This document shows positions 225 to 21,923 of a stretch of 35,151 nt of DNA, in pieces. A model generated the notes under the pieces. That model saw nothing but the letters and a program-made list of their open reading frames with translations, did not search any database and had not been told where the DNA came from. The DNA is from Desulfocapsaceae bacterium (lineage in GTDB: Bacteria; Desulfobacterota; Desulfobulbia; Desulfobulbales; Desulfocapsaceae): the NCBI GenBank assembly GCA_030065655.1, contig JASJDT010000007.1, positions 1 through 35,151 on the forward strand, read 5' to 3'. Both the position numbers and the translations under genes were made by a program. Every line of letters starts with the position of its first letter. The stretch's first letter is position 1.

Positions 225-507
225 AGCCGCCTTTCCCAGTCGTTTCAATGGCAAGCGTGGAAACCTGGTCACCATCTACTATGAAAAATACGGGTATTTC
301 AGTATCACCGGCGCCAATGACAACCTTGTTGTTCAGAACCTCTTCGGCAGGCTTGCCAAAAAGTCTTTCTAACGCCGGGCCACGCACATAGAGGTCGGTC
401 TGTTGTTCAATCCGCGGAGCCAACCCTTGGTCGGCCATGGTAAGCACCGCCGAGCAGATTCCGGCAATCACCGAGAGCACGATAACCATCCGAGCTATTT
501 CAGACAT
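126..507 (-). CDS. rnfG: Electron transport complex subunit RnfG, truncated/chimeric at the contig end
   Basis: MSEIARMVIVLSVIAGICSAVLTMADQGLAPRIEQQ...GKGGYGGDLKLMIGIDL...SHSETPGLG is typical RnfG N-terminal and FMN-binding domain sequence; overlaps the end of rnfD. Residues after SETPGLG in the listed ORF (DENRVPRSW...) come from the inverted-repeat spacer and are not trusted. Confidence 0.88.
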
Positions 508-1495: not shown

Positions 1496-1499
1496 AACC

Positions 1500-2813: not shown

Positions 2814-2823
2814 GACTACTTTT

Positions 2824-3459
2824 TTAACGTAAATGACAAGCCGCGCATAACACTTCGCCATCGGCTTCGGTGAATTGCTCCGGTGAATTTTCAAGGTGAC
2901 AGTTAGTACAGCTCGTGTGGTACACCTCCGAAAGAGAACCTGGGGCATGGCATCCCAGGCAGGTATGCTCTTCTATTTCAAGATACTCGTCGTGATCCAT
3001 GATGTCCGGGGAATAACTGTCGTCGTCATGGCACTCCATACAACCTATAAGAGAGGTTTCGCTCTGCTGGACCGCAGGGTGGCACTGCCGGCAGGAGGCG
3101 GCTTGATCGTCATCCGCTATCTGCTCATGACACTGGCTGCAGTCAGTGCCGTGAATCTCTTTAAGTTCGTCATGGCTGAAATCTTCAGCGCCCATATCCT
3201 CGCCGTGGCAGTCTTCGCAGGTTGTTGCCTGGACAGAGCTGTACAATGAATGATGACAGACTGCGCAGGAATCAGCCATTTCATTGTGAGCGCCATGATC
3301 AAAAAGTACAGCCCCAGCCGTATTCCGAAGATATTTTCTGTCCGTTTCCGCCGGTGATTCCGGAATAAAATAGGCGAGAATAACTGCAACTGCTGCAACA
3401 ACAACTACAATTGTCAAGGAGCGTGTCCAATTTCGACGATCCTGCAAACTACCACTCAT
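2824..3459 (-). CDS. Membrane-anchored multihaem (8 CxxCH) cytochrome c associated with Rnf
   Basis: N-terminal TM anchor, then CAVCH, CEDCH, CSQCH, CRQCH, CMECH, CLGCH, CTNCH, CAACH; directly upstream of rnfC on the same strand. Confidence 0.93.
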   Translation of the reverse strand: MSGSLQDRRNWTRSLTIVVVVAAVAVILAYFIPESPAETDRKYLRNTAGAVLFDHGAHNEMADSCAVCHHSLYSSVQATTCEDCHGEDMGAEDFSHDELKEIHGTDCSQCHEQIADDDQAASCRQCHPAVQQSETSLIGCMECHDDDSYSPDIMDHDEYLEIEEHTCLGCHAPGSLSEVYHTSCTNCHLENSPEQFTEADGEVLCAACHLR

Positions 3460-3925
3460 GACTATCCCTTAAAATCAATCTTTCATTATCCTCATCACTC
3501 ATGGTGTACCAGCGGCACGAAGGACGGGTACAACTAATAAGTTTCAACTTTTTCGAGTCGGAGACCGATACATGGATAGCAGCTAATTTGCAGCCGTCCT
3601 GGATGCAGGTATGGCCCGGTTCGATCAATGAAGCACGACAATGTGGGCAACGTACGTCGGCCAGCTCTTCGTCATCGTCAACATGCAGGGTACTTTCTTG
3701 GTCAAGCACATTGAGATAAGCGGCAATCTTACTGATGCCGACCTCGCCCTGATTGTTGACAATCTCCAAGACTGCCTGGTCACCTTCATTCAGACCGGCA
3801 TCACAGTGGGGGCACCAACAGTTTAAGAAGGTGTTATGCTTAATATGGGACCTTTCCATCAGCGGATGAGATTCCCAGACCTCTTCTTCCCAACCAGGTG
3901 GTTTATCGGAATCTTTTTTTGTCAT
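3449..3925 (-). CDS. Zinc-ribbon-like hypothetical protein, first gene of the rnf/cytochrome cluster
   Basis: CPHCDAGL, CPHCRASL and other paired cysteines; 3' end overlaps the cytochrome start. Start assumed at MTKKDSDKPP; the ORF track extends to 3967. Confidence 0.7.
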   Translation of the reverse strand: MTKKDSDKPPGWEEEVWESHPLMERSHIKHNTFLNCWCPHCDAGLNEGDQAVLEIVNNQGEVGISKIAAYLNVLDQESTLHVDDDEELADVRCPHCRASLIEPGHTCIQDGCKLAAIHVSVSDSKKLKLISCTRPSCRWYTMSDEDNERLILRDSHEW

Positions 3926-4101
3926 CGGCAGCTCCGCAATTAAATCAAATATATAAAAATTATACATTTACGTGTAAGACAATCCTATATTATCCTCCAC
4001 GACTCAACCAACATTGAAAACAACCTCGCCAAGGTATCTTATTTTAAAATCTATTCCCACAAAATTCCTCTTTTTTCAGAAAACTTTCGTACTATTTCGT
4101 G

Positions 4102-4822: not shown

Positions 4823-6289
4823 CTATTCTCCTTTTTTCAAAGGTAACAAAACGGTAAAAGTTGTCCCCTGTTCGATTTTACTCTCCACACTGATCGAGCC
4901 CTGGTGTGCATCGACGATGGACTTGACAATGGCCAACCCCAGGCCGGTACCATGAATTTCCCGGGTGTTCTTATCCTTAACCCGGTGAAAGCGGTTGAAA
5001 ATCTCAGCAAGGTCCTCCTCGGGAATACCAAAACCGGTATCACTTACCCTGATGACCGCCTGCTCGTTTTCAACGCCCGCTGAAACCGTTATCCTGGCAT
5101 GTTCTGGTGAGTACTTTACCGCATTGGTCAATAAATTGGTGAGCACCTCGTCAAGGCCCTGCTTGTCAGCATTGAGTAGAGGAAGTTCATCCTCAATCTC
5201 AGTAGTTACTTCGATGCTCTTTTCCTCGGCGGCCGCCCTATGAAAACTGACCTGCTCTTCAACAAGATCTCCAAGCTGAAGCTCTTGCATCTCCCGACCG
5301 ACCATGCCCGCCTCAATTCTGGCCAGATCGAGGAGTTCGGAGACAAGTTCTACCAAGTTGTTAATCTTTCCCGAGGCTCTCTCCAATATCTGCCGCTGTT
5401 TATCGGTCACCTCGCCAGCCAGGCCGTCTAGAATAATCTTTATCTGGGCAAGCAGAGAATTCATCGGACTGCGTATCTCATGAGAGACCATGGAGACAAA
5501 ATCTGATTTCATTCGATCCATCTCCTTGTCGGCGGTGACATCGTGAAGAACGGTGGTTGTCCCCAGAATTTGGCCGGCTCGATTACGAAATGGCGAGCAA
5601 TGCATGTTGATAATTTTTTCGCATTCACCGTCTTGCGAAGGAATAGAAATTTCCTGGCACAGTTCGGCAATAGTGTCATCGGGCATCGCCAGGGCCTTGT
5701 CGATACTGGCAATGATGGAATCATTAGTGACTACCTCCTCAACCGTTCTACCCTGCGGTTGTGAACCCATGTAGCCGACCATATTGAGAAATGCCGGATT
5801 AGCCAGCACAATTCTACGGTTATTATCGGTGGTCATTACCCCGTCGAGCAGCCGATTGACCATTACCCGCAATCTTGACTTGGAATCCTGAATATCCTGG
5901 AGGGCTTGGATATATTTTATCGATTTGGCAACAATCGTCCGCAGCTGATCTGGGGTAAATGGTTTGGGGATAAAATCGAAGGCTCCTTTTTTCATGGCTT
6001 CGATGGAATGTTCCACTGTCGCATAACCGGTAATAACTATCACGGCGGTATCGGGATGCTTCTCCTTTAGCTGCGGCAAGACCTCAAGTCCTGAAAGGTT
6101 GGGCATCATCAGATCAAGCAAAATGACATCGTAGTGTTTCTCCTCGATCATGCTCAACCCCAACTCACCGTTGTCGGCCGTGGCCACATCATATCCCTCT
6201 TCCTCAAGCACCATGGTGCAGGCGTCACGAATCCTCTCCTCATCATCGACCACGAGAATCTTTGGTGCTTGTATTTCCTGCATTGTCAT
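4823..6289 (-). CDS. Hybrid sensor kinase, REC-PAS-HisKA-HATPase
   Basis: ILVVDDEERIRDA receiver, PAS, SHEIRSP H-box, NLLTNAVKYS N-box, DTGFGIP and GTGLGLAIV G-boxes. Confidence 0.93.
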   Translation of the reverse strand: MTMQEIQAPKILVVDDEERIRDACTMVLEEEGYDVATADNGELGLSMIEEKHYDVILLDLMMPNLSGLEVLPQLKEKHPDTAVIVITGYATVEHSIEAMKKGAFDFIPKPFTPDQLRTIVAKSIKYIQALQDIQDSKSRLRVMVNRLLDGVMTTDNNRRIVLANPAFLNMVGYMGSQPQGRTVEEVVTNDSIIASIDKALAMPDDTIAELCQEISIPSQDGECEKIINMHCSPFRNRAGQILGTTTVLHDVTADKEMDRMKSDFVSMVSHEIRSPMNSLLAQIKIILDGLAGEVTDKQRQILERASGKINNLVELVSELLDLARIEAGMVGREMQELQLGDLVEEQVSFHRAAAEEKSIEVTTEIEDELPLLNADKQGLDEVLTNLLTNAVKYSPEHARITVSAGVENEQAVIRVSDTGFGIPEEDLAEIFNRFHRVKDKNTREIHGTGLGLAIVKSIVDAHQGSISVESKIEQGTTFTVLLPLKKGE

Positions 6290-6455
6290 GCTTTTTCTCC
6301 TTAGCCCGAATTTTGCGCGAGTCTGGTGGGTTAAAAGAACCTATTTCTCTAGCGGTACAGTTTATGCTCAGGAAAACACTTCAAACATCATCTATAATAT
6401 ACCAATAATGCTGTATTTTATTCTAAAAGACTCTTCTTTTCAGGCAATGTTCGGG

Positions 6456-7982
6456 TTAACCAATGGAATCAAATGGTAGGCCATCTGAATCGGCTAAAGC
6501 GGGCAGCTCCATTATAATCGTCGTTCCCTGTGGTCCCGTTTCCTTCACCTTGATATGTCCCCGGTTTTCCTCAAGAACACCATAGGCCATGCTCAAGCCC
6601 AAACCGGTGCCCTTACCCGGCGCCTTGGTGGTAAAGAAAGGATCGAATACCTTGTTCAGATTTTCCTCGGGGATACCACAACCGGTGTCTGAAACTTCGA
6701 GATACGCTTTACCGGTGCGTGGTTCACCATAGGTTTTCAGGATCAGAGTACCGTTGCCTTCCATAGCGTCAATAGCATTGATGATAAGATTGATTACCAC
6801 CTGATTCAGTTGATTTTTGTCTGCATCAATATAGATGAGATTGTCGGCCAGATCCTTGATGACTTCAACATGTACAAATAGTTTCTGGTCCCTAATCAAT
6901 CCCAGGCTTTCGTTTACTAAAGCATTGATGAGAAAAATATCTCTTTTGGGATTGGTCTGGCGGCTGTAGGCCAGCAAGTTCTTGACAATTTCTTTGCACC
7001 GTTCGGCATCTTCGAGGATGTAATCGAGGTTTTTCTTGTTGGGACTCCCTGCCTCCAGTTTCTCCTGCATGATATTGCCATACATGAGAATGGAGGTCAG
7101 TGGATTATTGATTTCATGAGCAACACCTGCTGCCAGACGACCAAGTGAGGCCATTTTTTCACTCTGGACTACCTGGGCCTGAGCTTCCTTAAGTTTTTGC
7201 TCCACCGCCAACTTTTCCCGCAGATCATTGAAAATAGCAGCTGTGGCTGATTCCTTGCCTTCATCGTAAATGATTGCCGCGGTCATCTCGACCGGAATTT
7301 CCTCACCGTCCCGAGTGCGGATATTCACTTTGGTTATGGGCAGTTTGCCACGTTCACCAAGAGAAGGATCACGCAGTTTACGCATGACTTCACGGGCAAC
7401 TCCTTCAGGATAGAAATCTTCGATATTGACCTCGTCGGCTTCGGCGATGGTGTAACCGAAAAGCTCTTCAGCCGCGCGATTCATCAGAATGATGTTGCCC
7501 CGGCGATCTGCTGCCATAATGCCGGATACGGAGCTCTGCACCACGTTATCGATGAGCTCGCGCATCCCGCTGTACAGTTTCTCAAGGGTTTTGATTTTGG
7601 TGATATCCCGGAAACTCTCGATTATATAGACAACATCACCATTGTCATCCAAAATGGGAGAAAAAACCCGGTCCTCCCATCTCTGCCGGCCCTGGCTGTC
7701 AGTGGTGGTAAACACAATCGACTTACCACTTTTCTTTTTAACGGCATCGGTGAGGGTCGGTTTTACTTCACCTCCTGCTGATGATTGGGTAACTGTTCGA
7801 AAGAGATGCTTGATATCCTCGCTTTTCTGGCCGATGGTTTGCTCGGCATTACGATCGATTTTCTCTTTTAATCGACGATTTACAGCAACTATGGTACCAT
7901 CGGGTGCCAGTATTCTGGTGGGGTATGAAAGTGAATCAAAAATCCGCAGTTGCCAATCATTTTCCGATGTTTTGGTAGCCAT
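6456..7982 (-). CDS. PAS-PAS sensor histidine kinase
   Basis: Two PAS regions, [14 protein letters not shown]-box, [40 protein letters not shown]. Confidence 0.93.
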
Positions 7983-8045
7983 ATATAATCCGTCGATCTA
8001 AGAAGAAGTTACCCCATTTCCGTTGTCAGTAAATTTCAGTTTGCA

Positions 8046-9059
8046 TCAGGATGGTACGGTACAGACTTCAGCAAGGCATTCGGCGGTCTTGCTGCCATCG
8101 CCCTTACCAACCACAAGATGTACGCTGGTGCCGGTACATCCAGATGACAGCAGATTTATACCGCCTTTTTGCAAGGCAACAAAAACTCGCTCGGCAATGC
8201 CGTAGCGATCCTGAAAATGTGGTCCGTGGAAAGAGACCAAGTCAACCTCCTCTTCATTAAAACTACCTAGGCACCTAGAATCACATGCTAAAATGGCGTG
8301 GATTGTCCGTAAAGTGCTCTTTCGCCAACGGTCTTCGATGAGTAATTCGCCATGAAAGACGCTGTTCTCTTGAGTTTGCCCAAGAAGGAGCCGGAATTTC
8401 TCTTCCTGTGAGCCAAGTTTTCGATATTCTTCATTTCCGTATAGCTCTGCGGGCATCTGCCAGCTGATCCGGGTAAGTTTTTGTTGTACATCCATGCCAT
8501 ATATTCGTATTTTCGGCTCCCAGTACACTGCAATGGTCTCCACCGGCTGATCACCTAAGAGCACCACCGGTCGAAGGGGGGTATGATTATCGGGAAGCTC
8601 ACAGCAGGTGAGAATTGCCTCCACAGCCTGATCTAGAAGGAGATATTCGCAATGGATGACAAGTGCGGAGATAGAGGTGCTCACACCATGAAAGGGAATT
8701 TCAGCCTCAATGAGAGCTTGGATAACCCGGGTATAGAGCCCTAAGGCAAATCTGTGAGGAAAAAGGGTTATGGTTCCCATGGAAGGTATGACCCGCCTTT
8801 CTCCTGTTTGCAGCTCCTCCTTTGCCTCCACAGCAAGCCTGGGAAAATCCTCTGCGGCAATACAGAGGGAGGTATAAATTGTGCCGGCTGATTGTACCTG
8901 ATGAAGATGCGGTATGGTTATTTTGGCTTCGGTAATCCGGCGCAGCAGCGTAATGAGTTTTTCAGAGGACTTTGCCGACTCCTGAAAATCAATGTGAACC
9001 AGCTCACCACTCAGCTTGATACCTCCTAATTTGAGCGTATCAACCATGCCGTCCCTCAT
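8046..9059 (-). CDS. ACT-domain-like protein (aspartokinase C-terminal-like repeats without a kinase domain)
   Basis: GPHFQDRYGIAERVFVALQKGGINLLSSGCTGTSVHLVVGKGDGSKTAECL resembles aspartokinase ACT domains; no amino-acid kinase motifs. Confidence 0.65.
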   Translation of the reverse strand: MRDGMVDTLKLGGIKLSGELVHIDFQESAKSSEKLITLLRRITEAKITIPHLHQVQSAGTIYTSLCIAAEDFPRLAVEAKEELQTGERRVIPSMGTITLFPHRFALGLYTRVIQALIEAEIPFHGVSTSISALVIHCEYLLLDQAVEAILTCCELPDNHTPLRPVVLLGDQPVETIAVYWEPKIRIYGMDVQQKLTRISWQMPAELYGNEEYRKLGSQEEKFRLLLGQTQENSVFHGELLIEDRWRKSTLRTIHAILACDSRCLGSFNEEEVDLVSFHGPHFQDRYGIAERVFVALQKGGINLLSSGCTGTSVHLVVGKGDGSKTAECLAEVCTVPS

Positions 9060-9132: not shown

Positions 9133-9516
9133 CTATAGATTATCCTTGACTATCTCCATGAGCTTGTCAAGATCAATGGGCTTGGGAACATAATCGTCAG
9201 CCAGAGTGGTTTTACCACCCATATGCGTATAATTGGTGGAACTGACCGCGTCGGAAACAGCAGTCAGCAAAACCACCACGATGTCTTTGTAATCATCGGA
9301 GTTTTTCAATTCCTCACAGAGAACATAGCCGTCTTTTCGCGGCATCATGACATCAAGTATTATCAGGGCCGGTTTTTCTTCTTTGATCTTCTCAAATGCT
9401 TCAACTCCATCGTAAGCCTTGGCAACCTGAAAATTCTCGCTCTCCAACTTCATGGAGATCATTTCCACCAGATCAGTATCATCATCTACAACCAAAATGA
9501 GTTTCTTGTCGCTCAT
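9133..9516 (-). CDS. Stand-alone CheY-like response regulator
   Basis: LILVVDDDTDLVEM, LIILDVMMPRKDG, VVVLLTA, DDYVPKPID. Confidence 0.92.
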   Translation of the reverse strand: MSDKKLILVVDDDTDLVEMISMKLESENFQVAKAYDGVEAFEKIKEEKPALIILDVMMPRKDGYVLCEELKNSDDYKDIVVVLLTAVSDAVSSTNYTHMGGKTTLADDYVPKPIDLDKLMEIVKDNL

Positions 9517-9594: not shown

Positions 9595-10521
9595 CTATAC
9601 CTGTGGTCTGGGATAGAGACCGGCCCTTTTAACTATCTCTTCCACCTTTTCTTCCCACTCAATTGCCATAATATGAAATCCTGCAACTCCTTCAACATTT
9701 TTCAGTCTTTCAATGGCTTCAACGCAGATTTTAATGCCTTCTTCCGGCTGCTCTTCCTTGGGGGTTGCAGCCATACGGTCAACAATTTCCTGGGGTACTT
9801 CCATGCCAGGTACCCGATTTTGCATAAATTTGGCAGCTCCGACCGACTTAATTGGAGTAATACCGGCGAGGATATAACATTTTTCATGCAATCTCCTGGC
9901 CCGTACACCCTCCATCCATTTTTCAAATTTGTCAACATTGAATATACACTGTGTCTGGATAAAGTCAGCACCTGCGTTTATTTTTTTGGCCAGACGCATG
10001 ACCCGCAGCTCAAAAGGATCGGCAAAAGGGTTGGCTGCGGCACCAATAAACATCTTTGGTGGATCTCCCTTCAAATCAGCTCCCCCCTGAAACTTTCCTT
10101 CATCACGCATCTGCTTGACCATCTGGATCAGCTGAACAGAGTCGATGTCATGGACGTTGGCAGCCATGGGATGATCACCGAATTTAGTGTGATCACCGGA
10201 GAGGCAGAGCATGGTATCGATTCCTAGAGAATATGCACCGATTATGTCTGCCTGCATGGCGAGACGATTGCGATCACGAGTAACCATCTGCAACAGGGGA
10301 TGCAGTCCCTGCTGTTTGGTGATAACCGAGGCGGCGAAACTGGACATTCTGACCATGGCGGTCTGATTGTCGGTGATATTGACAGCATCGACGACACCTT
10401 CCAGATATTTGCTCTTTTTCACCACTTCTTCCGGGAGGGCGCCGCGGGGCGGACCACATTCCGAGGTTACTGCAAGATGACCAGCATTTAAGACTTTTTC
10501 TAAATTGCTCTCTGTTTTCAT
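9595..10521 (-). CDS. metF: Methylenetetrahydrofolate reductase (MetF)
   Basis: TSECGPPRGA, VDAVNITDNQTAMVRMS, CRDRNR-type motif VTRDRNRLAMQ, AGADFIQTQCIFNV, LAGITPIKS. Start overlaps the metV stop (ATGA). Confidence 0.9.
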   Translation of the reverse strand: MKTESNLEKVLNAGHLAVTSECGPPRGALPEEVVKKSKYLEGVVDAVNITDNQTAMVRMSSFAASVITKQQGLHPLLQMVTRDRNRLAMQADIIGAYSLGIDTMLCLSGDHTKFGDHPMAANVHDIDSVQLIQMVKQMRDEGKFQGGADLKGDPPKMFIGAAANPFADPFELRVMRLAKKINAGADFIQTQCIFNVDKFEKWMEGVRARRLHEKCYILAGITPIKSVGAAKFMQNRVPGMEVPQEIVDRMAATPKEEQPEEGIKICVEAIERLKNVEGVAGFHIMAIEWEEKVEEIVKRAGLYPRPQV

Positions 10522-11186
10522 TCTGCCAAATCCTCTCTGATTATCTTTCGTGGACCACTCCCGCCACCGGAACGCCAATCCTTTGCCGGGGTAATCTCGA
10601 CAAAACTCTCTTCTTTTCCAAGAGCCTTGAGCCGATCCCAGATCAGCTGCCAGGCACAATCAACATCCTCACTGATCTCGCAATGCCCACCCGCTGAACC
10701 ACCGCATGGGCCATTCATCAGCTGTTTAGCACACCTGGCAATGGGGCAGATGCCGCCGGTTTCACCTAAGAGGCAATTGCCACAGCCCTGGCACCTTTCG
10801 GCCCAGACGCCCTGGCGCTCGGATGCCCCCATGAACTTGGTGTTTACTGCCGGGAAAATCGGTTTATCTTTGTAGCGCATGGCCAGCTGCTGGACACCAC
10901 AACCACAGGCCATGGACACTACCGCATCCACACCGGCAATCATGGAAACGATCTCCTCAACATACTCAGGGTCACATTGTCTCTCCAGGGTGTGCTGGCG
11001 AATGTCGATGGAAATGCCGCTTTTCAACAGAGCCATCTGCAGCCCGGAAGCGAGCAGTCCTACCTCTTTGCGTCCGCCGGCGGCGCAAACCGTTACACAT
11101 TCATTACAGCCTAGCAGAAGAATGCGTTTGTAGGGCTTGACGTATTCTATCAGTTCTTCTAAAGGTTTTCGTTCAGCAGTGATCAT
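10518..11186 (-). CDS. metV: MetV-like methylene-THF reductase C-terminal/zinc-binding domain partner
   Basis: GCNECVTVCAAGGRKEV, MACGCGVQ, CQGCGNCLLGETGGICPIARCAKQLMNGPCGG match the MetV/MTHFR_C family. Confidence 0.88.
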   Translation of the reverse strand: MITAERKPLEELIEYVKPYKRILLLGCNECVTVCAAGGRKEVGLLASGLQMALLKSGISIDIRQHTLERQCDPEYVEEIVSMIAGVDAVVSMACGCGVQQLAMRYKDKPIFPAVNTKFMGASERQGVWAERCQGCGNCLLGETGGICPIARCAKQLMNGPCGGSAGGHCEISEDVDCAWQLIWDRLKALGKEESFVEITPAKDWRSGGGSGPRKIIREDLAE

Positions 11187-11215
11187 CGTGGTTCAATCTC
11201 CTTCTGTTTTAGCCA

Positions 11216-11659
11216 TCAACAGGCCACTTGACCGGTTTGACCGGCGGTGGCGGATTTTATCGGGCTCGGTCCGAGCTCGCGTATTTTCTCAGTGATTGTC
11301 GTAGCGACCTCGGCAAAACGGTATCCCATGCCGGCGGACAGATACACCATTTCCAGCCGCTCCGGTTCAATGCCGATTTCTTCCATATATTTCCGGACAT
11401 ATTCTACTCTTCTCGCAGCTTTAGTGTTGCCACTTTTAAAATGGCAGTCGCCCTCAAGACAGCCTGCAACATAGACTCCATCCGCCCCTTTTTCAAAGGC
11501 CTTGACAATATGCAGGGCGTCAACTTTGCCGGAGCAGGGCACCCGGACGATTTTGACATTGGCGGGATAGGGCAGACGCTGGCTGCCAGCCATGTCAGCT
11601 GCTGTATATGCACAGTAGTGGCAGCAAAAGGCCACAATTACCGGTTCAAAATTCTTCAT
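11216..11659 (-). CDS. mvhD: Hydrogenase/heterodisulfide reductase iron-sulfur subunit, MvhD family
   Basis: VAFCCHYCAYTAADMAG, VRVPCSGKVD, GADGVYVAGCLEGDCHFKSGN. Confidence 0.93.
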   Translation of the reverse strand: MKNFEPVIVAFCCHYCAYTAADMAGSQRLPYPANVKIVRVPCSGKVDALHIVKAFEKGADGVYVAGCLEGDCHFKSGNTKAARRVEYVRKYMEEIGIEPERLEMVYLSAGMGYRFAEVATTITEKIRELGPSPIKSATAGQTGQVAC

Positions 11660-14600
11660 TACGCCTCAGCCTCCAAGCCATCAAAAAGTTTCTCTAATTT
11701 CGCTAAAATCCGGTCGTCCTCGAACTGCATGAGTTGAATGGCCTTGGCCGGGCATTCAGATGCGCAGAGACCACAGCCATGGCATTGGGCCGGATCGATT
11801 TCCGAATAGCCTTCTGCATTGATGAAGGGCACGTCAAACGGGCAGGCTCGAACGCATATGAGACAGGACGCACATTTATCACTGTCCACCCTGGCCGATG
11901 CTGCACCAAGATTGATGGAATCCTGAACAAGCATGGTCTGCGCGCGTGATGCCGCAGCTCTAGCCTGAACCAAACTTTCCCGGATGGACTTGGGCGAATG
12001 AGCCGTTCCGGCAACATAAAAACCGGGCATGGCCAGATCGACAGGCCGCAGTTTGACATGATCTTCGAGAAAATAACCATCATGAGTGCGCTGCAGCTTG
12101 AAGGTCATGGCAAGTTCCTCGGTGGAGTCCTTGTCGGCTATCAGTCCGGTACTGAGACAAAGATGATCTGCTTTTACTTTAAGCTCCATGCCCAGGATCG
12201 GATCATTGAAGGAAATTTCCAGCTTTTCTCCGGCCGCTTGCACCTGAGGAGGTTCCTCCATCTCGTAGCGGACAAAAATAACTCCTTTTGCCCGGGCCTT
12301 CTGATAATATTCCTCCTGGAAACCGTAGGTCCGCATGTCCCGGTAGAGCACAAAAATCCGGGTATCAGGATTAATCTCAGCCAGACGCAGCGCATTTTTC
12401 ACTGCATTCTGACAGCAGATGCGGGAACAATTAGGATTATCCGCGTTGCGAGAGCCAACACACTGGATCATCACTACATTTTCCCAGCGTTTTATCGCGT
12501 CAGGCTGTTCTTCGAGCATGGTCTGCAACTCGATCTGGGTTGAGACGTTGTCATGGCTGTCAAGAAGGTACTCTTCCGGCCGGTTGGGCTGGGCCCCCGT
12601 GGCCATGATAGTTACCCCATGATTGATCTGCCGGTAAAACATCTGCTTGCCCACCTGCATTCCAGTTGAGAACATTCCCGGCATACCATTATGATCGACG
12701 ATAATTGCTCCAGTGATCACCTCTATGAGCTTATGGGCCATCACCTGATCGATGAGTTCGGTGACGAATTGTTGAATATCATCGCCTTCCAGAGTTTTCC
12801 TGAGCTGTTTGGCTACGCCGCCCAGGTTGTTCGACTTTTCAGCGAGATACACCTTAAATCCCTGCTCGGCAAGCTCAAGCGCAGAAGTCATGCCGGTAAC
12901 CCCGCCGCCAACCACCAGAACATCTTTGTTCATGGGTAGGCTGTGCTCGGAAAGCGGTTTGGAAGCAATGGCCCCAGCCACCGCCATCTGAATTAGTTCC
13001 TGGGATTTTGCTGTTGCCTTAACCGGCTTGGCACCATGGACCCAGGTTGACTGATCGCGGATATTGGCCATCTCCAGCAGATATTTATTGAGTCCCGCCC
13101 GCCTGATCAGTTCCTGGAATTTAGCCTCGTGAGTCCTGGGCGAACAACCGCCGATAACCACCCTGTTAATTCCTTCGTCGATAATGGTCTGTTGTATCTG
13201 CTCCATGGATTCCCGGCTGCAGCCATGCCCCTTGGCCTGAGCTACAGCAACGCCCGGGAGTTTGGCTGCGTAGTCGACGAGTTTATCAACATCGGCAACC
13301 GCACCGATATTCTCTCCGCAATCACAGATGAACACACCGACCTTGGCATCTTCACCACTGACATCTCGTTCGGGGATAAGGGCAACCATATCCTTTTCTT
13401 CCTTGGGTGTGGTGGCAATGTCCTTGGCTGCCATGCAGGCAGCAGCACTGGCCTGGACCATGGTCTCGGGGATGTCCTTGGGTTCCTGCAATGTGCCACA
13501 GGTGTAGATGCCCGGCTTGGATGTGACCACCGGATTGAATCCGGTAGTGCGTGGAAAATTCTCATCATTGAGCTCAAGGCCCATGGTTTCCATGAGCGCT
13601 TTGGTATCATCACCCACCTTGAATCCGGTGGCCAGAACGACCATATCAAAATTTTCAGTGATCTTATTTGCATCTCCTTCCAGAGTATAGGAGAGCTCAA
13701 GATCATCTTTTCCTTCTGGTTGGAGAATAGAGTGGGGGCGGCTATGAATGAAGCGGATGCCAAAGTCATTTTTGGCTCTTTGGTAGTAAAGCTCGTAGTC
13801 TTTGCCAAAGGTTCGCATATCCATATAGAAAATCGTGGTTTCAATGTCCTCCTGAAAACGCTCCTTCGTCACCATGGCCTCTTTGAGGGCAAACATGCAG
13901 CAAGCGCTGGAACAATGTGACCCAGCTCCTTTCTGGATGCCTCTCGAGCCGATGCACTGGATCCAGGCTATTTTCTTCGGCTGTTTGTTGTTGGACGGTC
14001 TGAGCAGCTTCCCCTGGGTCGGTCCTGAGGCAGAGAGAATTCGCTCATATTCCAGACTGGTGACCACATCGGCCTTGGTGGCATAGTCAAGATAATCGAG
14101 ATGACTCGGATCAAACAGTTCGGCTCCGGTGGCCAGAACCACTGATCCACATTTAACCTCTCTGTTTCTACCGATGTCATCCGGCTCAATGGCTCCAGCC
14201 GGGCAGATCTTCACCAGTGCCTCAACATCCTCACATTTTTCCAGGTCGATGGAGTATGCCTGGGGTGTGGCCTGCGGGTAGCGCATGCAGGTCGGAGCCC
14301 GGTGGTCAAGTCCGGGGGTAAAACGTACACAATCGGGAAAAGCCTGGTAGCAGTCGCCGCAGGCGGTGCATTTTTCCAGGTTGATATAGCGCGGCGCAGT
14401 CTTCAGGGTTGCTGTGAAATTCCCCTTTTCTCCGCTGACCGCTGTCACCGTGGTTAAGGCGGCAAGCTCGATATGCTTCTGGCGGCCACTTTCAGATAGG
14501 TTCGGCGAGATTGTGCACAGATCGCAGTTATTGGTGGGAAATGTTCGGTCGAGCTGAGTCATCAAGCCACCGATGTTATGGTCTTTGTCCACCAGAATAA

Positions 14601-14706
14601 CATTTTTTTCAGCCTCGGCCAGGTCGAGGGCAGTACGAATACCACCAAGCCCACCCCCTATTACAAGCACCTTATCACTGCTTGGAAGCGTCTTTGATTT
14701 CTGCAT
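11659..14706 (-). CDS. hdrA: Double-module HdrA-like FAD/Fe-S protein (two HdrA-type flavin modules plus C-terminal 2x[4Fe-4S])
   Basis: Two dinucleotide-binding motifs (VLVIGGGLGGIRTALDLAE; VLVVGGGVTGMTSALELAE), two IQCVGSR-type motifs (AWIQCIGSR, MIQCVGSR), CTACGDCYQAFPDC, C-terminal CASCLICVRACP and CHGCGLCASECP. Confidence 0.92.
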   Translation of the reverse strand: MQKSKTLPSSDKVLVIGGGLGGIRTALDLAEAEKNVILVDKDHNIGGLMTQLDRTFPTNNCDLCTISPNLSESGRQKHIELAALTTVTAVSGEKGNFTATLKTAPRYINLEKCTACGDCYQAFPDCVRFTPGLDHRAPTCMRYPQATPQAYSIDLEKCEDVEALVKICPAGAIEPDDIGRNREVKCGSVVLATGAELFDPSHLDYLDYATKADVVTSLEYERILSASGPTQGKLLRPSNNKQPKKIAWIQCIGSRGIQKGAGSHCSSACCMFALKEAMVTKERFQEDIETTIFYMDMRTFGKDYELYYQRAKNDFGIRFIHSRPHSILQPEGKDDLELSYTLEGDANKITENFDMVVLATGFKVGDDTKALMETMGLELNDENFPRTTGFNPVVTSKPGIYTCGTLQEPKDIPETMVQASAAACMAAKDIATTPKEEKDMVALIPERDVSGEDAKVGVFICDCGENIGAVADVDKLVDYAAKLPGVAVAQAKGHGCSRESMEQIQQTIIDEGINRVVIGGCSPRTHEAKFQELIRRAGLNKYLLEMANIRDQSTWVHGAKPVKATAKSQELIQMAVAGAIASKPLSEHSLPMNKDVLVVGGGVTGMTSALELAEQGFKVYLAEKSNNLGGVAKQLRKTLEGDDIQQFVTELIDQVMAHKLIEVITGAIIVDHNGMPGMFSTGMQVGKQMFYRQINHGVTIMATGAQPNRPEEYLLDSHDNVSTQIELQTMLEEQPDAIKRWENVVMIQCVGSRNADNPNCSRICCQNAVKNALRLAEINPDTRIFVLYRDMRTYGFQEEYYQKARAKGVIFVRYEMEEPPQVQAAGEKLEISFNDPILGMELKVKADHLCLSTGLIADKDSTEELAMTFKLQRTHDGYFLEDHVKLRPVDLAMPGFYVAGTAHSPKSIRESLVQARAAASRAQTMLVQDSINLGAASARVDSDKCASCLICVRACPFDVPFINAEGYSEIDPAQCHGCGLCASECPAKAIQLMQFEDDRILAKLEKLFDGLEAEA

Positions 14707-14877
14707 TTCTACCTTCTTCTTTTACGTATTGCTGTGAATTTGGCATAATTCGTCATTAAAGAACGAGTTGCGCACCTCACCTTTGCTTTTTGCTGAGATG
14801 GACTAAGTACGTTCAGTTCTCATCAGCCTGCACACCTCAACGGCCATGCACTTGCCCTGGGCTGCGTGAAAGACTTC

Positions 14878-15750
14878 CTAAACTCCGGCGACATCAAAAA
14901 TTTCCGGAAGCTTATGCTCCCAGCCCAGGGTCTGCACCTTCACGCCCTGAGCTTTACCTTTGAGAGCGGCAATGGTCTCGCCGGCAATCTTGGTACCCTC
15001 AAGCTCCCGGTCAGGTGATTTACGTATCCGCCGGATGAGGTCATCACTGATATTGGCACCGGGCTCACTGTTGGCAATGTACTGGGCTATGGCCAGTGAT
15101 TTAAGCAGAAAAACCGTGGGAATAATGGGTACTCCCAGACCCTTGGCCTTGTCCAGAAAGCCGTCGAAGGCTGCAACATCAAAAACTGGCGGGGTAATGA
15201 TAAAGGAAGCACCCGCTTCAACCTTCTTGCGGGCAAACTCCAATTCTTTTGCCAGCATCTTTTCATCATCCCAGGGAGCAAGGGTACATCCTGCCGTAAA
15301 GGAAGGGATGCCGTCCAGTTCAAACCCTTCCATATCCTTGCCGGAGGAGAGCGAACGCAGTGCACTGAGCAATTCAAACTCATCAATATCATCGACCGTT
15401 TTGGCCTCGCGGTGATCACTTTGACTCATATCTTCGCTGTGGGTGACCACGATATTGCTGATTCCCAGTACATGGGCAGCCATGGCATCACCTTGCAGGG
15501 CAAGACGGTTTTTATCACGGCAGTACATATGCATAATGGTCTCGATGCCTTCTTGACGCATCAGCACTCCGCCTGCCAGTGCACTCATCCTGACAATGCC
15601 GTTGTCCATATCCGGCACGACGATGGCATCAACCCTGCCTTTGATGCGGCGGGCGTCATTGACCAACCTGGCAATATTCACACCTTTCGGGGTGTGCATT
15701 TCCGCCAGTACGGCGAATTCCTTTGTTGATAATTTCTTTTGAAAGCTCAT
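14878..15750 (-). CDS. Second MetF-like methylenetetrahydrofolate reductase
   Basis: VDAIVVPDMDNGIVRMSALAGGVLMRQEG, MYCRDKNRLALQGD, AGASFIITPPVFDV; same family as 9595-10521 but clearly diverged. Confidence 0.87.
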   Translation of the reverse strand: MSFQKKLSTKEFAVLAEMHTPKGVNIARLVNDARRIKGRVDAIVVPDMDNGIVRMSALAGGVLMRQEGIETIMHMYCRDKNRLALQGDAMAAHVLGISNIVVTHSEDMSQSDHREAKTVDDIDEFELLSALRSLSSGKDMEGFELDGIPSFTAGCTLAPWDDEKMLAKELEFARKKVEAGASFIITPPVFDVAAFDGFLDKAKGLGVPIIPTVFLLKSLAIAQYIANSEPGANISDDLIRRIRKSPDRELEGTKIAGETIAALKGKAQGVKVQTLGWEHKLPEIFDVAGV

Positions 15751-15826
15751 GGTTTATTTTTCCTCCAAGTCAGAGATATCGGTTTGCAATTCGCAGTATT
15801 CAATAGTTCGCATTCTGTTCAACGGA

Positions 15827-17149
15827 CTAAAACAGAGCTGATTCGGGATGAAAAACATCGACATCCTTCAAATCTTCTCCGAGATACTCACGCTCATTGG
15901 GTCCGAGTATGCCCAGTGAGAGGCAGATAAGGGTCCAGAGGTGAACCGTGTTATACGCCCCACCAAAATGATGGCCAATATCGTGAACCTGAGCATGACA
16001 GTTGTGACAACCGGTAATACAATAATCCGCACCGGTCTCCATTATTTGATCAAATTTGAACTTGCCGTAGGCCCGCCGTTCCTCCTGAAAGCCGGATTGG
16101 AGAAATCCGCCGCCGCCGCCGCAGCAATAATTGTTAGATCTATTGGGGGTCATCTCAACGACGTTTTCTTCGCCGACAACCTGTTTCACGACATAACGCA
16201 GATCTTCGGCAACGGCTTCACCATAGCCTTTCCGGACAATCTGGCAGGGATCCTGGATGGTGAATTTGATCTTCCTCTCCTTATTCCAGTCGGAGTTGAC
16301 CTTCAGGCGCCCCTCCCGGATCCATTTCGCATAGTATTGATATATTGAAGCTACTTCGAAGTTATGGTCGATGTTGAATTTTTTCAGTCCGGCCCGGACT
16401 GAGAAGGTGATGTGTCCTCACTCCGTGTTGAGAAAGACCTTGCACCCTAGTTCATCGGCCTGTTTTGCCGAAACCCGGGTGACGTGTTCCCAGCATTTAT
16501 TATCGGCGAGAAAGAGGCAATAGTTTTCCGCTGCCCAGCCTTTGCTGCCATAGGTCCAGTCAACTCCGGCCAGATGCAGAATTTTCCAGAGCGGTACCAG
16601 CTCATCGGGCTCGGTCACCGGTTCCCGGGAGTTCTGGTTGAGAAAAAAATGGGCGCCAGGCTTGTCGATCGGCGCCTGCATTACTTTAAATTCGGGCTGC
16701 GCCTCCTGATATTCGGCAAGCACGTCTTCAACGACAAACACAAAATCATCCGGAGCCGTACCCATGGCGCTGTTGGAATCATTCCGCAGGGCCATATCAC
16801 AGGAATCCCGTATTCCCTTGGGTCTTTCGTCGCGAGGCCAGCTGGCCCTGGCATTAAAAACCAACTGGGGAATATCTATTTTCATGGGACAGACATAGAT
16901 ACAGCGCTGACACATGGTGCACATCCATACCCAGTTTGACTTGGTTGCCTCTTCATCCATGCCCATTGCACACATGCGCAGAAACTTGCGCGGGTCCATG
17001 TGCTCAAGTCCAGAAGCGGGACAACCGGAGGCACAGGCGCCACAGGTCAGACAAAGATTGAGATTGCCGCCCTCCGGCAGAATCTCAGCAACCTTGTCCA
17101 TGAAGGAGCCCTGTTTTTTTCCTTTGATTATAATACTGCTTTCTGCCAT
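15827..17149 (-). CDS. Selenocysteine-containing HdrC-HdrB fusion (Fe-S/CCG-domain heterodisulfide reductase-like protein); in-frame TGA at 16418-16420 read as Sec
   Basis: ORFs 16418-17206 and 15827-16189 are in the same frame and the 16190-16417 interval has no other stop: ...CKVFLNTE-U-GHITFSVRAGLKKFNIDHNFEVASIYQYYAKWIREGRLKVNSDWNKERKIKFTIQDPCQIVRKG...NNYCCGGGGG...GADYCITGCHNCHAQ. N-terminus has CLTCGACASGCP and CTMCQRCIYVCP. The UGH position corresponds to the ECGH-type Cys of CCG domains. Confidence 0.88.
16384..16402 (-). promoter_or_regulatory. Candidate bacterial SECIS hairpin just downstream of the Sec UGA
   Basis: Minus strand TCAGTCCGG-G-CCGGACTGA, a perfect 9-bp inverted repeat starting 15 nt after the TGA; the apical loop lies about 23 nt from the TGA. 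Confidence 0.6.
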
Positions 17150-17221: not shown

Positions 17222-17458
17222 TCAACTGCGCTTGCGAATACGCATCCGCTCAAACGTATCCGTGTCTGTATGACCCTTGCTTACCAGTATTTCGTACTCC
17301 TCCTGCGGTAAAACCTTGAGCAGATCCTGGCGTATATCCGCATCTATCCCTCGCACTTCCAGAATCTCCGAGGGGCTCATACTACTCAACACCTGGGTCA
17401 CCTTCAATAGCGATATTGAAGAAAGTGAATCCCTGAAATCTATTGTTTTTTTTACCAT
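17222..17458 (-). CDS. TusA-like fold small protein lacking the catalytic cysteine
   Basis: IDFRDSLSSISLLKVTQVLSSMSPSEILEVRGIDADIRQDLLKVLPQEEYEILV aligns by eye with the TusA pattern (LDxRGLxCPxPLLKxxxALxxLxxGexLeVxxxDpxxxxDlxxxlxxxGhell) but has no Cys. The TTG start at 17485 is an alternative. Confidence 0.6.
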   Translation of the reverse strand: MVKKTIDFRDSLSSISLLKVTQVLSSMSPSEILEVRGIDADIRQDLLKVLPQEEYEILVSKGHTDTDTFERMRIRKRS

Positions 17459-17514
17459 TTCTGTCAATATCCAGACAAAGGTCAAAGTCTACGATCTACC
17501 AGGCAGCATATGAA

Positions 17515-17529
17515 GCAACATCTGCGCCA
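17515..17529 (-). promoter_or_regulatory. Candidate sigma-54 (-24/-12) promoter for the tusA-like/hdr/met cluster
   Basis: Minus strand C-TGGCGC-AGATG-TTGC-T against consensus YTGGCACGRNNNTTGCW; about 57 nt upstream of the ATG at 17458; divergent from a sigma-54 activator gene. Confidence 0.65.
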
Positions 17530-17829
17530 GCGTGCAATCAGAAATACTTAAAAATCACATAAGCATTAGTGCCTTAAAAATTCATTACAGCCATAAAAAA
17601 CGAGAAAACGGAAATGAAACTTAAAACCGCTTGGTTAGAACCTGCATCCAAGGCACTTATACCCCCTTGTGGGGTGCTAGTATTGTGGGATAACTCAACG
17701 GATTAGACACCGTGTTTTAACACTGATGCTACAACGTAGGAGTGCTAAAACAAATAGATTTGGCAATGAACTGTTAAATTGTTTAAAGTGTTTAGCTTTA
17801 CAAGTGTTAAGGGCTTAACAGAGGGATAC

Positions 17830-19245
17830 ATGATTGGACGCGAGCTGGAAGGATACTGGAAGACCGTGGTGAACACCATTCGTGACGGCATTATGATCGT
17901 CAACACCAGTGGTGCCATTGTCTCCGTCAATTCCGCCTTTGAGACAATCACCGGATACTCACGTGATGAGATAATCGGAAAATCATGTACGATTCTCCAG
18001 TGCGATATCTGTGAGCAGTCTCGAGCCGATGGAGGCGAGTCATGGTGTGCGCTTTTTCGCTGCGGCGAAGTTGAGCAGCGTAAATGCACCATACGCCGGA
18101 AAGACGGTACCTATTTCCAGGCCCTAAAAAACGGAGCCATCCTCAAAGACCCCGACGGCAGCGTCATCGGCGCCGTCGGCACCATTGCCGATATTTCTGA
18201 AATCGCTGAAAAAGATGACCAGCTTGAGGCTTATCGCCAACAGCTGCACTCGGAGGATGTCTTTCAGGGCATTGTTGGGGTCTCCCAACGGATGCAACAG
18301 GTTTTCGACATGATCAGGAATGCGGCCTCTTCTCAGGCACCGGTGATCATCTACGGCGAGAGCGGTACAGGTAAGGAGCTGGTCAGTCGGGCCATCCACA
18401 ATCTTGGTCCACGCAAGGATAAGGCTTTTATCAAGGTCAACTGTGCCGCCCTGACCGAGTCGTTGTTGGAGAGTGAGCTGTTCGGCCATGTCCGCGGTGC
18501 CTACACCGGAGCCTACAAGGATCGAGTCGGTCGTTTTGAGAAGGCCAATGAAGGGGACATTTTCCTCGATGAAATCGGTGATTTGCCCATCTCCACCCAG
18601 ACTAAACTCCTCAGGGTACTAGAAGAAAAAGTCATTGAGCGGGTCGGCTCAAGCAGCCCGATCCGTACCGATGTCCGTATCATTTCAGCGACCAACCAGG
18701 ACCTTATGGAACTTGTCGAGCGTGGCGTATACCGTAAGGACTTTTATTTCAGGATAAATGTCATACCCATCTTTCTGCCACCCTTACGTCAGCGTGTCGA
18801 GGACATCCCCCTGCTTGCAGAATCTCTATTAAAAAAGATGCTCCTCAAAGAAAAAAAGAACATCAAGGGGATAAGCAAGGACACCATGGAAGTGCTGATG
18901 AGTCATTCCTGGCCCGGCAACGTCAGAGAACTAAAGGGCGCCTTCGAGTATGCGCTGGTTACCTGTCATGAGGAAATAATCCATCCTCACCATCTTCCTG
19001 AAACCATCCATAAACCACAGCGAAGGAGCACCACAACCGGTAAGCGGACCTCCTTCAACATGCAGGAAATTGAAAAGCAGGAATTGTTGGAGGCATTGTC
19101 AAAAACAGGCGGCAATCAGTCGAAGGCAGCAGAATTGTTGGGCATTTCCAGGGTCACCGTGTGGAACCGGATGAAACGCTATGGAATCGATGCCAAGCGA
19201 CTCATCGAAGTGCAGGGCAAAACGTCAATTAACAATGATAAATAA
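17830..19245 (+). CDS. PAS-containing sigma-54-dependent Fis-family transcriptional regulator
   Basis: PAS domain, GESGTGKELVSRAIH Walker A, ESELFGHVRGAYTGA (GAFTGA loop as GAYTGA), FLDEIGDLP, C-terminal Fis HTH GGNQSKAAELLGISRVTVWNRMKRYGI. Start taken at MIGREL; the ORF track starts at 17779. Confidence 0.95.
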   Translation: MIGRELEGYWKTVVNTIRDGIMIVNTSGAIVSVNSAFETITGYSRDEIIGKSCTILQCDICEQSRADGGESWCALFRCGEVEQRKCTIRRKDGTYFQALKNGAILKDPDGSVIGAVGTIADISEIAEKDDQLEAYRQQLHSEDVFQGIVGVSQRMQQVFDMIRNAASSQAPVIIYGESGTGKELVSRAIHNLGPRKDKAFIKVNCAALTESLLESELFGHVRGAYTGAYKDRVGRFEKANEGDIFLDEIGDLPISTQTKLLRVLEEKVIERVGSSSPIRTDVRIISATNQDLMELVERGVYRKDFYFRINVIPIFLPPLRQRVEDIPLLAESLLKKMLLKEKKNIKGISKDTMEVLMSHSWPGNVRELKGAFEYALVTCHEEIIHPHHLPETIHKPQRRSTTTGKRTSFNMQEIEKQELLEALSKTGGNQSKAAELLGISRVTVWNRMKRYGIDAKRLIEVQGKTSINNDK

Positions 19246-19265: not shown

Positions 19266-21923
19266 CTATTTATCGTCAAACACCTTGCGGATAGCTGTGG
19301 CCATATCCGCTTTTATCACCGGCTTGTAGATAAAGGCCTTGACCCCGAGGGCCTCTGAATATTCATCGGAAATTCTGCTGCTATAGCCGGTGCAGAGAAT
19401 AATTGGTATATCCCGACGCACCCGCAAAAGCTCCGTCGCCAGCACATCACCGGTCATCTGCGGCATGGTTATATCGGTAATCACCAGATCGAAATCATCC
19501 GATTTCGCTTTAAACAACTCAAGCGCCTCATAGCTGCTTGTTCTTGAAGTCACTGTATAGCCAAGTGATTCCAACAGACGGCTGGTCATTTTAATAATTG
19601 GTGGTTCATCGTCAATTAGAAGAATGCGTTCGTCTCCCGTGGGCAAGCTTACATCCGTATCTACTTTTTGCTGGTCGAGATAGCCAGTCGTCGGCAGATA
19701 TATAGTGAAAACCGTTCGCTCGTGGGGTTTGCTGATCACACTGACCGCACCGCCGTGATCCTCAACAATGCCCTTGACCACTGCTAGTCCCAACCCCGTT
19801 CCCTCACCGGGTCCCTTGGTGGTGTAATATGGTTCAAAAATTGCCTCTATCTTTTCACGCTCAATTCCAGGTCCGGTATCCGCTACGGTAATCTGGAGAT
19901 ATTTACCAGGTGGAAACTGTAGCTCCTGCAACTGCGGCGATACGTCAATGTTCGTCTCCTCCAGGCTAAGCTCCAGCACTCCACCGCTATCATGCATGGC
20001 GTGAGCAGCATTGGTACACAGATTCATCAGAACCTGATGAATCTGGGTGGCATTCCCATGTACTAGCGCCTGACTATCAAGCTGTGTCTGTATTTCAATA
20101 AAAGTGGGAATGGTTGAACGAACGAATTTCACCACTTCTTCGGCGATGGTCTGAACCCGGATGGGCTTTTTTTCTTCCTCCGATTGTCTGGCAAAAGCCA
20201 GGATCTGCTTGACCAGATCTTTTGCCCGATTACCTGCCGCATACACCTCCTGAAGGTTATCGTGGAGTTGAGAGCCTCTATTTACGTTGGCCAAAGAGAG
20301 TTCGGTGAATCCTAAAATTGAGGAGAGTATATTATTGAAGTCATGGGCAATCCCTCCCGCCAGGTTGCCGATGGATTCAAGTTTCTGCGATTGCATCAGC
20401 TTTTTTTCCAGGAGTAGTTTATCCCTCTCGGCAATCCTCTCCCGAGTAATATCCTGGATGACACCAAATACTTTAACTGGTGCGCCGGTGTCATCTCTTT
20501 CCAATTCGGCAATTGAGCGAATAATTCTAAACGTCGGACCGGATGCCGGACGAATCTCAAATTCCAGGTCATAGGGTTGATCATTTTCAATGAGATCGAC
20601 CAAGGCCTGGTGCACCCTTTCTTTCTCAGGTATGCAATTTTCCACATCCTCTGTAGAGAATTGTTTTGTCTGGGGATCAAATCCATAAATACGCTTGGCC
20701 TGATCGGATTCCCAGAAATTCCCGGAGACAATATCATACTCCCAGTTGCCGACTTTGCTTATCTGTTGCGCCTGCTGGTAGCGCTGAGCATTTTGTTTCA
20801 ATGCCCTCTCGGCCGCCTGACGCTCGTGTATTTCCACACTCAGCTTTCTGTTGAATACGAAAAGTGTAACTATGCCCGCACTGGTAACAACCAGCACGAA
20901 TAGGACGATACCAATAATCCACCAGAGCCTGCTATAGTCTACGATTGCTTCTGGCTCATAGAGAAACCCTTCGAGGGAAAAAGCGGGGTCGATCATACCG
21001 AGGCTGGCGTAGGTGTTTAGAATATGTTTCCACCTCCCGGGATTCATGTGGCCTATCTGGACGAGCTCCGGCCGCATGTTATTGGTTATGGTGGCCGCTT
21101 CAAAGCGCAGATGGTCGCGAGTCTTGGTAATCTGGTAGTTGTTTTGCAATATATCGATGATTTCTTCCGGGTGGTCCACAGCATACTGCCATCCCTTCAG
21201 TGAGGCCTGTAAAAACGTTCGGACCCGCTGGGGACTTCGCTCAACCTCTTGCTCGGTGGTAAACAGACAATCGCTGTAAAAATCGACACCGTAGGTGTAC
21301 GGGGAGATCACCGTTGGTTCGATACTCTGCTGTTTAAGAAACCAGGGCTCGTTAGTGACATAGGCACTCACCGCATCCGTCTTTCCCTCAATGAGATCAT
21401 CGAGGTTATAGGTCTGGTCGAGCCGTTTGAAGGATTGGAGGGGGATACCCTCATTCATGAACATGGCCAGAATGTCGGCATCTTTTTTGCCCGGCAGCAG
21501 CATGACCTTTTTGCCAATAAGGTCCTGCAGGGAGTTGATGCCTCTGTCCCGGCGGGCCAGGAGAATAGAAGGTGAGTGCTGGAGAATAGGGGCCAGAACC
21601 ACGAACGGATTGCCCTCGGCTCGGTGCAGCAAAAGCTCACTGCCGGCAATACCGTAGTCGGCTCGCCCGGCCAGCACCTCTTCCTTGGCAAATTTTCCGG
21701 CTCCGCCTTCGACAATAGTGACGTCGAGTCCGGCCTCGGCATAAATTCCTTTATGCAGGGCCGCGTAATAACCGGCAAACTGAAATTGATGCTTCCAGGC
21801 AAGTTGCAGAACAATCTGTTCCGAGGCTGGAGAAGCAAAGGGTAAAAACAAAGATATGACTATGAGAAAAAAGCCAACCAGCAAACCATCGGTTTTTGTA
21901 AAACATTTCGACCGTATTGCCAT
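19266..21923 (-). CDS. Hybrid histidine kinase with periplasmic NMT1/THI5-like (SsuA/TauA-type) sensor, TM, PAS, HK and REC
   Basis: QIVLQLAWKHQFQFAGYYAALHKGIYAEAGLDVTIVEGG (NMT1/THI5 type), TM segment, PAS, GIAHDFNNILSSI, DTGPGIEREKIEAIFEPYYTTK, C-terminal ILLIDDEPPIIKM receiver. Confidence 0.94.
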   Translation of the reverse strand: MAIRSKCFTKTDGLLVGFFLIVISLFLPFASPASEQIVLQLAWKHQFQFAGYYAALHKGIYAEAGLDVTIVEGGAGKFAKEEVLAGRADYGIAGSELLLHRAEGNPFVVLAPILQHSPSILLARRDRGINSLQDLIGKKVMLLPGKKDADILAMFMNEGIPLQSFKRLDQTYNLDDLIEGKTDAVSAYVTNEPWFLKQQSIEPTVISPYTYGVDFYSDCLFTTEQEVERSPQRVRTFLQASLKGWQYAVDHPEEIIDILQNNYQITKTRDHLRFEAATITNNMRPELVQIGHMNPGRWKHILNTYASLGMIDPAFSLEGFLYEPEAIVDYSRLWWIIGIVLFVLVVTSAGIVTLFVFNRKLSVEIHERQAAERALKQNAQRYQQAQQISKVGNWEYDIVSGNFWESDQAKRIYGFDPQTKQFSTEDVENCIPEKERVHQALVDLIENDQPYDLEFEIRPASGPTFRIIRSIAELERDDTGAPVKVFGVIQDITRERIAERDKLLLEKKLMQSQKLESIGNLAGGIAHDFNNILSSILGFTELSLANVNRGSQLHDNLQEVYAAGNRAKDLVKQILAFARQSEEEKKPIRVQTIAEEVVKFVRSTIPTFIEIQTQLDSQALVHGNATQIHQVLMNLCTNAAHAMHDSGGVLELSLEETNIDVSPQLQELQFPPGKYLQITVADTGPGIEREKIEAIFEPYYTTKGPGEGTGLGLAVVKGIVEDHGGAVSVISKPHERTVFTIYLPTTGYLDQQKVDTDVSLPTGDERILLIDDEPPIIKMTSRLLESLGYTVTSRTSSYEALELFKAKSDDFDLVITDITMPQMTGDVLATELLRVRRDIPIILCTGYSSRISDEYSEALGVKAFIYKPVIKADMATAIRKVFDDK

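Follow-up and report, generated by a model that had tools for sequence, protein, structure and literature searches.

The MetVF-HdrA-MvhD module and its genomic setting

We analyzed a 35,151-nt stretch of DNA from a Desulfocapsaceae bacterium (assembly GCA_030065655.1, contig JASJDT010000007.1, positions 1-35,151; hereafter the window) and focused on six genes related to the Hdr-coupled methylene-tetrahydrofolate (methylene-THF) reductase complex of Moorella thermoacetica. Open reading frames (ORFs) and domain searches place all six genes on the minus strand, in the order HdrCB, MetF2, HdrA, MvhD, MetV and MetF1, with exact outer bounds at 9595 and 17149. Pfam and NCBIfam profiles back each gene name, so the gene list, shared strand, ends and overlaps of an initial annotation, made from the sequence alone, are borne out.

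HdrCB (17149-15827) is a 440 amino acid fusion of HdrC, with two [4Fe-4S] motifs, and a DsrK/TmcB/HmcF-like CCG protein. Its frame contains one TGA (16420-16418), at residue 244. MetF2 (15750-14878) is a methylene-THF reductase (MTHFR)-fold protein (PF02219) with an altered folate site. HdrA (14706-11659; 1015 amino acids) comprises two fused HdrA copies with two flavin adenine dinucleotide (FAD) modules. Both halves are HdrA-like, and the first lacks the N-terminal domain, because its match to the HdrA2 profile begins at position 132. MvhD (11659-11216; FlpD family, PF02662, 176 bits) is an all-cysteine version, and MetV (11186-10518; DUF5981, PF12225, 127 bits) is rich in cysteine. MetF1 (10521-9595; PF02219, 147 bits) is a methylene-THF reductase; scored by E. 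coli numbering, its active-site residues Glu28, Asp120, Lys172 and Gln183 are all present and are kept in 34/34 homologues of modules A and B (module A being that of the window, module B a paralogous one described below). There is a one-base overlap between hdrA and mvhD and a four-base overlap between metV and metF1. An Rfam search of the window gave no match, and a PDB sequence search with MetV returned chance hits only.

The order HdrCB-MetF2-HdrA-MvhD-MetV-MetF1-regulator is identical in all 19 family relatives (18 complete, one cut by a contig end) and is shared by most of 42 named loci, a set containing partly the same genomes. The module is thus not a chance arrangement. Named relatives include Desulfopila, Desulforhopalus, Desulfofustis, Desulfoprunum and many metagenome-assembled genomes of Desulfobulbaceae and Desulfocapsaceae, and the TGA-containing HdrCB and MetF2 both occur in cultured organisms including Desulfofustis glycolicus DSM 9705, Desulfopila aestuarii DSM 18488 and Desulforhopalus singaporensis DSM 12130. 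At two of the 42 loci hdrCB, 71-72% identical, is inverted relative to the other genes, and at three of the most divergent loci no HdrCB was found in the stretch covered. Across Desulfobacterota, related modules occur in at least 13 further families, mostly without an adjacent HdrCB.

We also observed paralogous modules. A second module in the family has the order MTHFR3-kinase-HdrC-HdrB-HdrA-MvhD-MetV-MetF-regulator; in the window's own genome this module B, with separate HdrC and HdrB, is split between contigs L007 and L008, and the reading frame of its MvhD contains a TGA. A third, HdrA-MvhD-MetV-MetF without MetF2, is present in all five relatives examined (L209-L213), four of which have no HdrB or HdrC match nearby. 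Divergent to the MTHFR3 gene of the second module lies a gene for HgcA, the mercury-methylation corrinoid protein (L007:5629-6822, G000:C109; 432 bits, cut-off 275), and the same arrangement occurs in one member of the genus (L061:112-1302).

The assembly (3.84 Mb, 286 contigs, 84.5% complete) contains further Wood-Ljungdahl genes, namely an Fhs gene and a carbon monoxide dehydrogenase/acetyl-CoA synthase (CODH/ACS) operon that encodes CooS, AcsB, two CdhD-type subunits, a pterin-binding methyltransferase and a RACo-like activator. A lack of other C1-pathway genes, which would have spoken against the initial interpretation, is thus not the case. The domain content, gene overlaps, fixed operon order, CODH/ACS and Fhs genes, MetF1 residues, the distribution of ACS and of a fused MTHFR among family members with and without MetF2 (below) and parallels in passages on Moorella (PMC5861303, PMC8760232, PMC9012536) all favor a relationship to the type IV enzyme. 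We consider it probable that the module specifies a Desulfobacterota version of this Moorella-type complex, in which methyl-/methylene-THF would be coupled to NAD(H) and to a second carrier.

HdrCB and the proposed route of electrons

Consistent with the selenocysteine (Sec) that the initial annotation placed in HdrCB, the window and every one of the 19 relatives have the in-frame TGA, with a cysteine codon in none of these 20 orthologues, and so do all 36 named loci covering the position (partly the same genomes as the 19 relatives). An HdrCB paralogue in the same genome (L190), 61% identical, has cysteine at this site, and residue 244 aligns exactly with the cysteine of the ECGH motif in the DsrK that this genome encodes. 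A hairpin resembling a selenocysteine insertion sequence is predicted in all 20 sequences (16373..16420, minus strand, including the UGA). Its codons 250-255, just 3' of the TGA, show stronger synonymous constraint than any other part of the gene, with a mean top-codon fraction of 0.97 compared with 0.60 elsewhere (top of 170 windows). The invariant UGA, the cysteine in the paralogue and in DsrK, and the RNA constraint 3' of the UGA together provide strong sequence evidence that this codon specifies Sec. A SelB search of the assembly, incomplete as noted above, found no full SelB above the cut-off and a short match to the SelB C-terminus on contig C67.

Two further loci bear on HdrCB relatives. 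The cysteine paralogue (L190/L198, G000:C206) adjoins an FAD_binding_2 flavoprotein fragment, and at L199:2863-7463 (G000:C221) another double HdrA, of 1028 amino acids, adjoins an HdrCB-like protein that starts with a helix-turn-helix domain.

The profiles scoring best against HdrCB are TmcB, HmcF and DsrK rather than methanogen HdrB. The scores lie far below all three cut-offs (163.5/735, 155.8/750 and 104/400 bits) and the module holds no membrane partners, so HdrCB resembles these families without qualifying as a member. Its C-terminal CCG site is intact and is the sole intact one. The AlphaFold model is poor (mean predicted local distance difference test score, pLDDT, 56); HdrB and EtfD are among its top Foldseek matches, a list that we did not use further.

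These features raise the possibility, which we regard as rather unlikely, that HdrCB(Sec) is a true disulfide reductase or oxidase site. Electrons from methyl-THF would then exit through HdrA and HdrCB to a DsrC-like protein disulfide, which would link the one-carbon (C1) pathway directly with sulfite reduction; the third partner would be NAD(H) or ferredoxin. The profile ranking, the intact CCG site, the position of Sec244 at the DsrK cysteine with no reversion to cysteine among the orthologues, and the presence of DsrK in the genome favor such a role, and a DsrC-type disulfide has been postulated for FlxABCD-HdrABC (in passages of PMC5296606). The low family scores argue against it, as do the lack of a DsrC gene among the annotated neighbours and the absence of HdrCB beside the module in many other families.

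Returning to a type IV complex, we propose that MetF1 and MetV would form the site of methyl-/methylene-THF interconversion, while the double HdrA and MvhD would pass electrons, via the two FADs of HdrA, between MetVF, NAD(H) and a carrier of low potential, for instance ferredoxin. HdrCB(Sec) may serve as a further redox port, with one intact CCG cluster site and, in place of the DsrK cysteine, a selenol, and MetF2 may be a conserved extra MTHFR-fold subunit. Since the host is a sulfate reducer, and one with CODH/ACS, the complex would most likely run in the oxidative direction, from methyl-THF to methylene-THF. The potentials of the methylene-/methyl-THF couple (about -200 mV) and NADH (-320 mV), as given in passages of PMC5861303, imply that methyl-THF cannot readily reduce NAD+ unaided. 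In a sulfate reducer that oxidizes acetyl units by this route, reduction of NAD+ from a -200 mV donor would need help, either by confurcation with reduced ferredoxin or by delivery of electrons to a higher-potential disulfide; HdrA-MvhD would fit the former, and HdrCB(Sec) with its DsrK-like site would fit a higher-potential acceptor.

Several observations weigh against this assignment. The principal caution is the presence in relatives of up to two further MetVF-HdrA-MvhD modules; given this redundancy, the module of the window need not be the catabolic enzyme, or not the only one. Among 60 family genomes, ACS is present in 29 of the 31 with MetF2 but also in 26 of the 29 without it, so the pathway does not depend on the module. 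Nor does HdrCB correspond to a standard HdrB plus HdrC pair. For the purified Moorella complex itself, passages of PMC8578096 and PMC8760232 report that ferredoxin coupling was not demonstrable.

The same sources, in which bifurcation by the Moorella complex is likewise not demonstrated, describe a hypothesis for acetogens in which the Hdr part does not bifurcate and serves as a connector between MetVF and either ferredoxin or an electron chain in the membrane. We judge this unlikely here: two FAD sites and the arrangement of MvhD and HdrA match known bifurcating HdrA complexes, the module lacks a membrane subunit, and Rnf is not syntenic in relatives. Genes for RnfG, RnfD and RnfC with a class III cytochrome c do lie in the window (70-3459), as initially annotated. 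The functional link drawn from them is not supported by synteny: in nine relatives the ~16 kb downstream of the module contain no Rnf gene, and proximity to Rnf is therefore not a conserved feature. Within the window, the Rnf cluster (70-3967, minus strand) is preceded by the class III cytochrome c and by a 172 amino acid protein without any Pfam match.

MetF2, a conserved MTHFR-fold protein with an altered folate site

MetF2 matches PF02219 at 84.6 bits (cut-off 24). Its AlphaFold model is confident (pLDDT 93), and the top 50 Foldseek matches in the PDB are all MTHFRs. Glu28 is kept in all sequences compared and an RDxNR motif is conserved. Gln183 is replaced by proline in 20/20 family sequences, and Asp120 by glutamate, alanine or threonine, though the alignment near residue 120 may slip by one position, making this change less certain than that at 183. 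In a broader set (n=26), residue 120 is glutamate in 23 and residue 183 is proline in 17. MTHFR3, the additional MTHFR of the second module, has mostly histidine and glycine at these positions. MetF1 thus retains the catalytic residues Glu28, Asp120 and Gln183, of which MetF2 keeps Glu28 and has mostly lost the other two.

In many further Desulfobacterota families a MetF2 homologue immediately precedes HdrA-MvhD, as a rule with MetV-MetF1 behind them (13 families, counting three loci with HdrC and HdrB between MetF2 and HdrA). A maximum-likelihood tree, whose root is unreliable owing to the long branches of the E. coli sequence and fused_L009, joins MetF2 and MTHFR3 in a single clade (97/93) that includes neither MetF1 nor the MTHFR portion of a long fusion protein. 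The initial annotation had treated MetF2 as a second MetF inserted locally; its conservation across the phylum and the recurrence of such a protein in the second paralogous module rule this out. MetF2 is therefore a genuine and conserved protein of the MTHFR fold whose folate site has changed, and standard turnover of methylene-THF has probably been lost.

The literature passages retrieved, from a few papers, do not mention a second MTHFR in modules of this type. We tentatively suggest that MetF2 may represent a new kind of subunit: an MTHFR without folate turnover, retained throughout Desulfobacterota in Hdr-coupled methylene-THF reductases, where it would act as a flavin relay or as a gate that senses folate. 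In the present complex the HdrCB selenol would then join the C1 pathway to a thiol/disulfide carrier. That MetF2 is instead an enzyme for a different one-carbon or pterin substrate, so that the module would serve two C1 reactions, seems doubtful. The intact fold, the conserved Glu28 and RDxNR motif and the conservative change of Asp120 to glutamate in most of the broad set are compatible with catalysis, but the family-wide loss of Gln183, the variation at residue 120 and the lack of a candidate substrate gene in the cluster point away from it.

In 16 of the family members without MetF2 the closest MTHFR is one long frame of ~850-940 amino acids (one at 512, probably cut), which lies near AcsB in several genomes. 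In the one example examined, a MetF2-negative family member (L034:1480-3876), this frame combines an MTHFR at residues 7-299 with a CdhD domain from residue 599 onward. MetF2 is present in none of the 16 genomes with the long frame. The two arrangements are mutually exclusive in this sample, which suggests that Hdr-coupled modules replace the fused MTHFR enzyme in the same pathway, with the reservation that the counts are of genomes from a few genera rather than independent events.

Neighbouring genes and comparison with known systems

Directly downstream of metF1, also on the minus strand, is a CheY-like response regulator (9133..9516) that is conserved in relatives, followed by a regulator region (4823..9059) encoding an ACT-like protein (9059-8046), a PAS histidine kinase (7982-6456) and a receiver-histidine kinase (6289-4823); both kinases are kept in relatives together with the regulator. 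Upstream, a divergent PAS-sigma54-HTH_8 activator (17779..19245, plus strand) is of the type also found beside the module in other families. A candidate sigma-54-like -24/-12 promoter, TGGCGCAGATGTTGCT (17514..17529, minus strand), matches 10/11 scored positions; similar elements lie 328-378 bases before the hdrCB start in 8-9 of the 17 relatives scanned, mostly those that also have the divergent activator. Beyond the activator, at 19266-21923 on the minus strand, is a hybrid histidine kinase with an N-terminal NMT1/THI5 substrate-binding domain.

Between the candidate promoter and hdrCB lies a small TusA-like ORF (17222..17458, minus strand; 78 amino acids). Its match to PF01206 (E=2.8e-5) is below the curated cut-off, three homologues from relatives also match TusA, and it lacks the CPxP cysteine. 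The ORF is present in ~10 relatives, largely carriers of the divergent sigma-54 activator. Although a TusA-like ORF preceding hdrCB in part of the family might hint that the Hdr complex acts on an unrelated sulfur substrate, with MetVF merely co-regulated, we consider this very improbable given the missing catalytic cysteine, the metV/metF1 and hdrA/mvhD gene overlaps, and the retention of the block HdrA-MvhD-MetV-MetF1 in three paralogous modules and many families.

The coupling of methylene-THF reductase to energy conservation is a matter of interest for acetogens as well as for sulfate reducers using the pathway in reverse, as is the second acceptor of the Moorella complex. The variant described here offers two handles not reported for Moorella: an invariant Sec, in a DsrK-like HdrCB, at a candidate second redox port, and a non-canonical MTHFR subunit conserved across the phylum. 

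Our comparison with Moorella rests on passages of the cited papers (Mock et al. 2014 as represented in PMC5861303, PMC8760232 and PMC9012536). In the MetFV-HdrABC-MvhD complex of this Wood-Ljungdahl organism, as here, metF, metV, mvhD and a double HdrA are clustered, and the adjacency of MetVF-type metV and metF and the presence of HdrA and MvhD in the same cluster agree with a type IV MTHFR, as the initial annotation had recognized; the definition of that type also includes a single physical complex, NADH oxidation at HdrA and coupling to a second acceptor. The doubled HdrA, initially listed as a difference, is no novelty, as Moorella HdrA also consists of two fused copies (PMC9012536) and carries two FADs (PMC5861303). 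The module departs from the type IV pattern of separate HdrC and HdrB with two CCG sites: here the two are fused, DsrK-like and Sec-containing, with one intact CCG site. The MTHFR-fold MetF2 before hdrA is extra, and the host is a sulfate reducer.

Also in Desulfobacterota, the metF-HdrABC genes of Seep-SRB1g (PMC10553843) and the putative bifurcating Met homologues of Proteobacteria such as Desulfobacca (PMC6085437) place MetF beside Hdr genes, with a predicted coupling of methylene-THF, NADH and ferredoxin; the passages found mention neither a Sec-containing HdrCB nor a second MTHFR clade. DsrK, TmcB and HmcF share with HdrCB the two [4Fe-4S] motifs and the CCG domain, but differ in their adjoining membrane partners and, for the DsrK of this genome, in having the ECGH cysteine at the Sec site. 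Selenium use in Hdr and Mvh proteins of sulfate reducers is shared with Desulfobacterium autotrophicum HRM2 and Desulfococcus multivorans, for which Sec-containing HdrA, HdrD and MvhD are reported, at loci that the passages found do not describe as MetVF modules (PMC2702500, PMC5109826).

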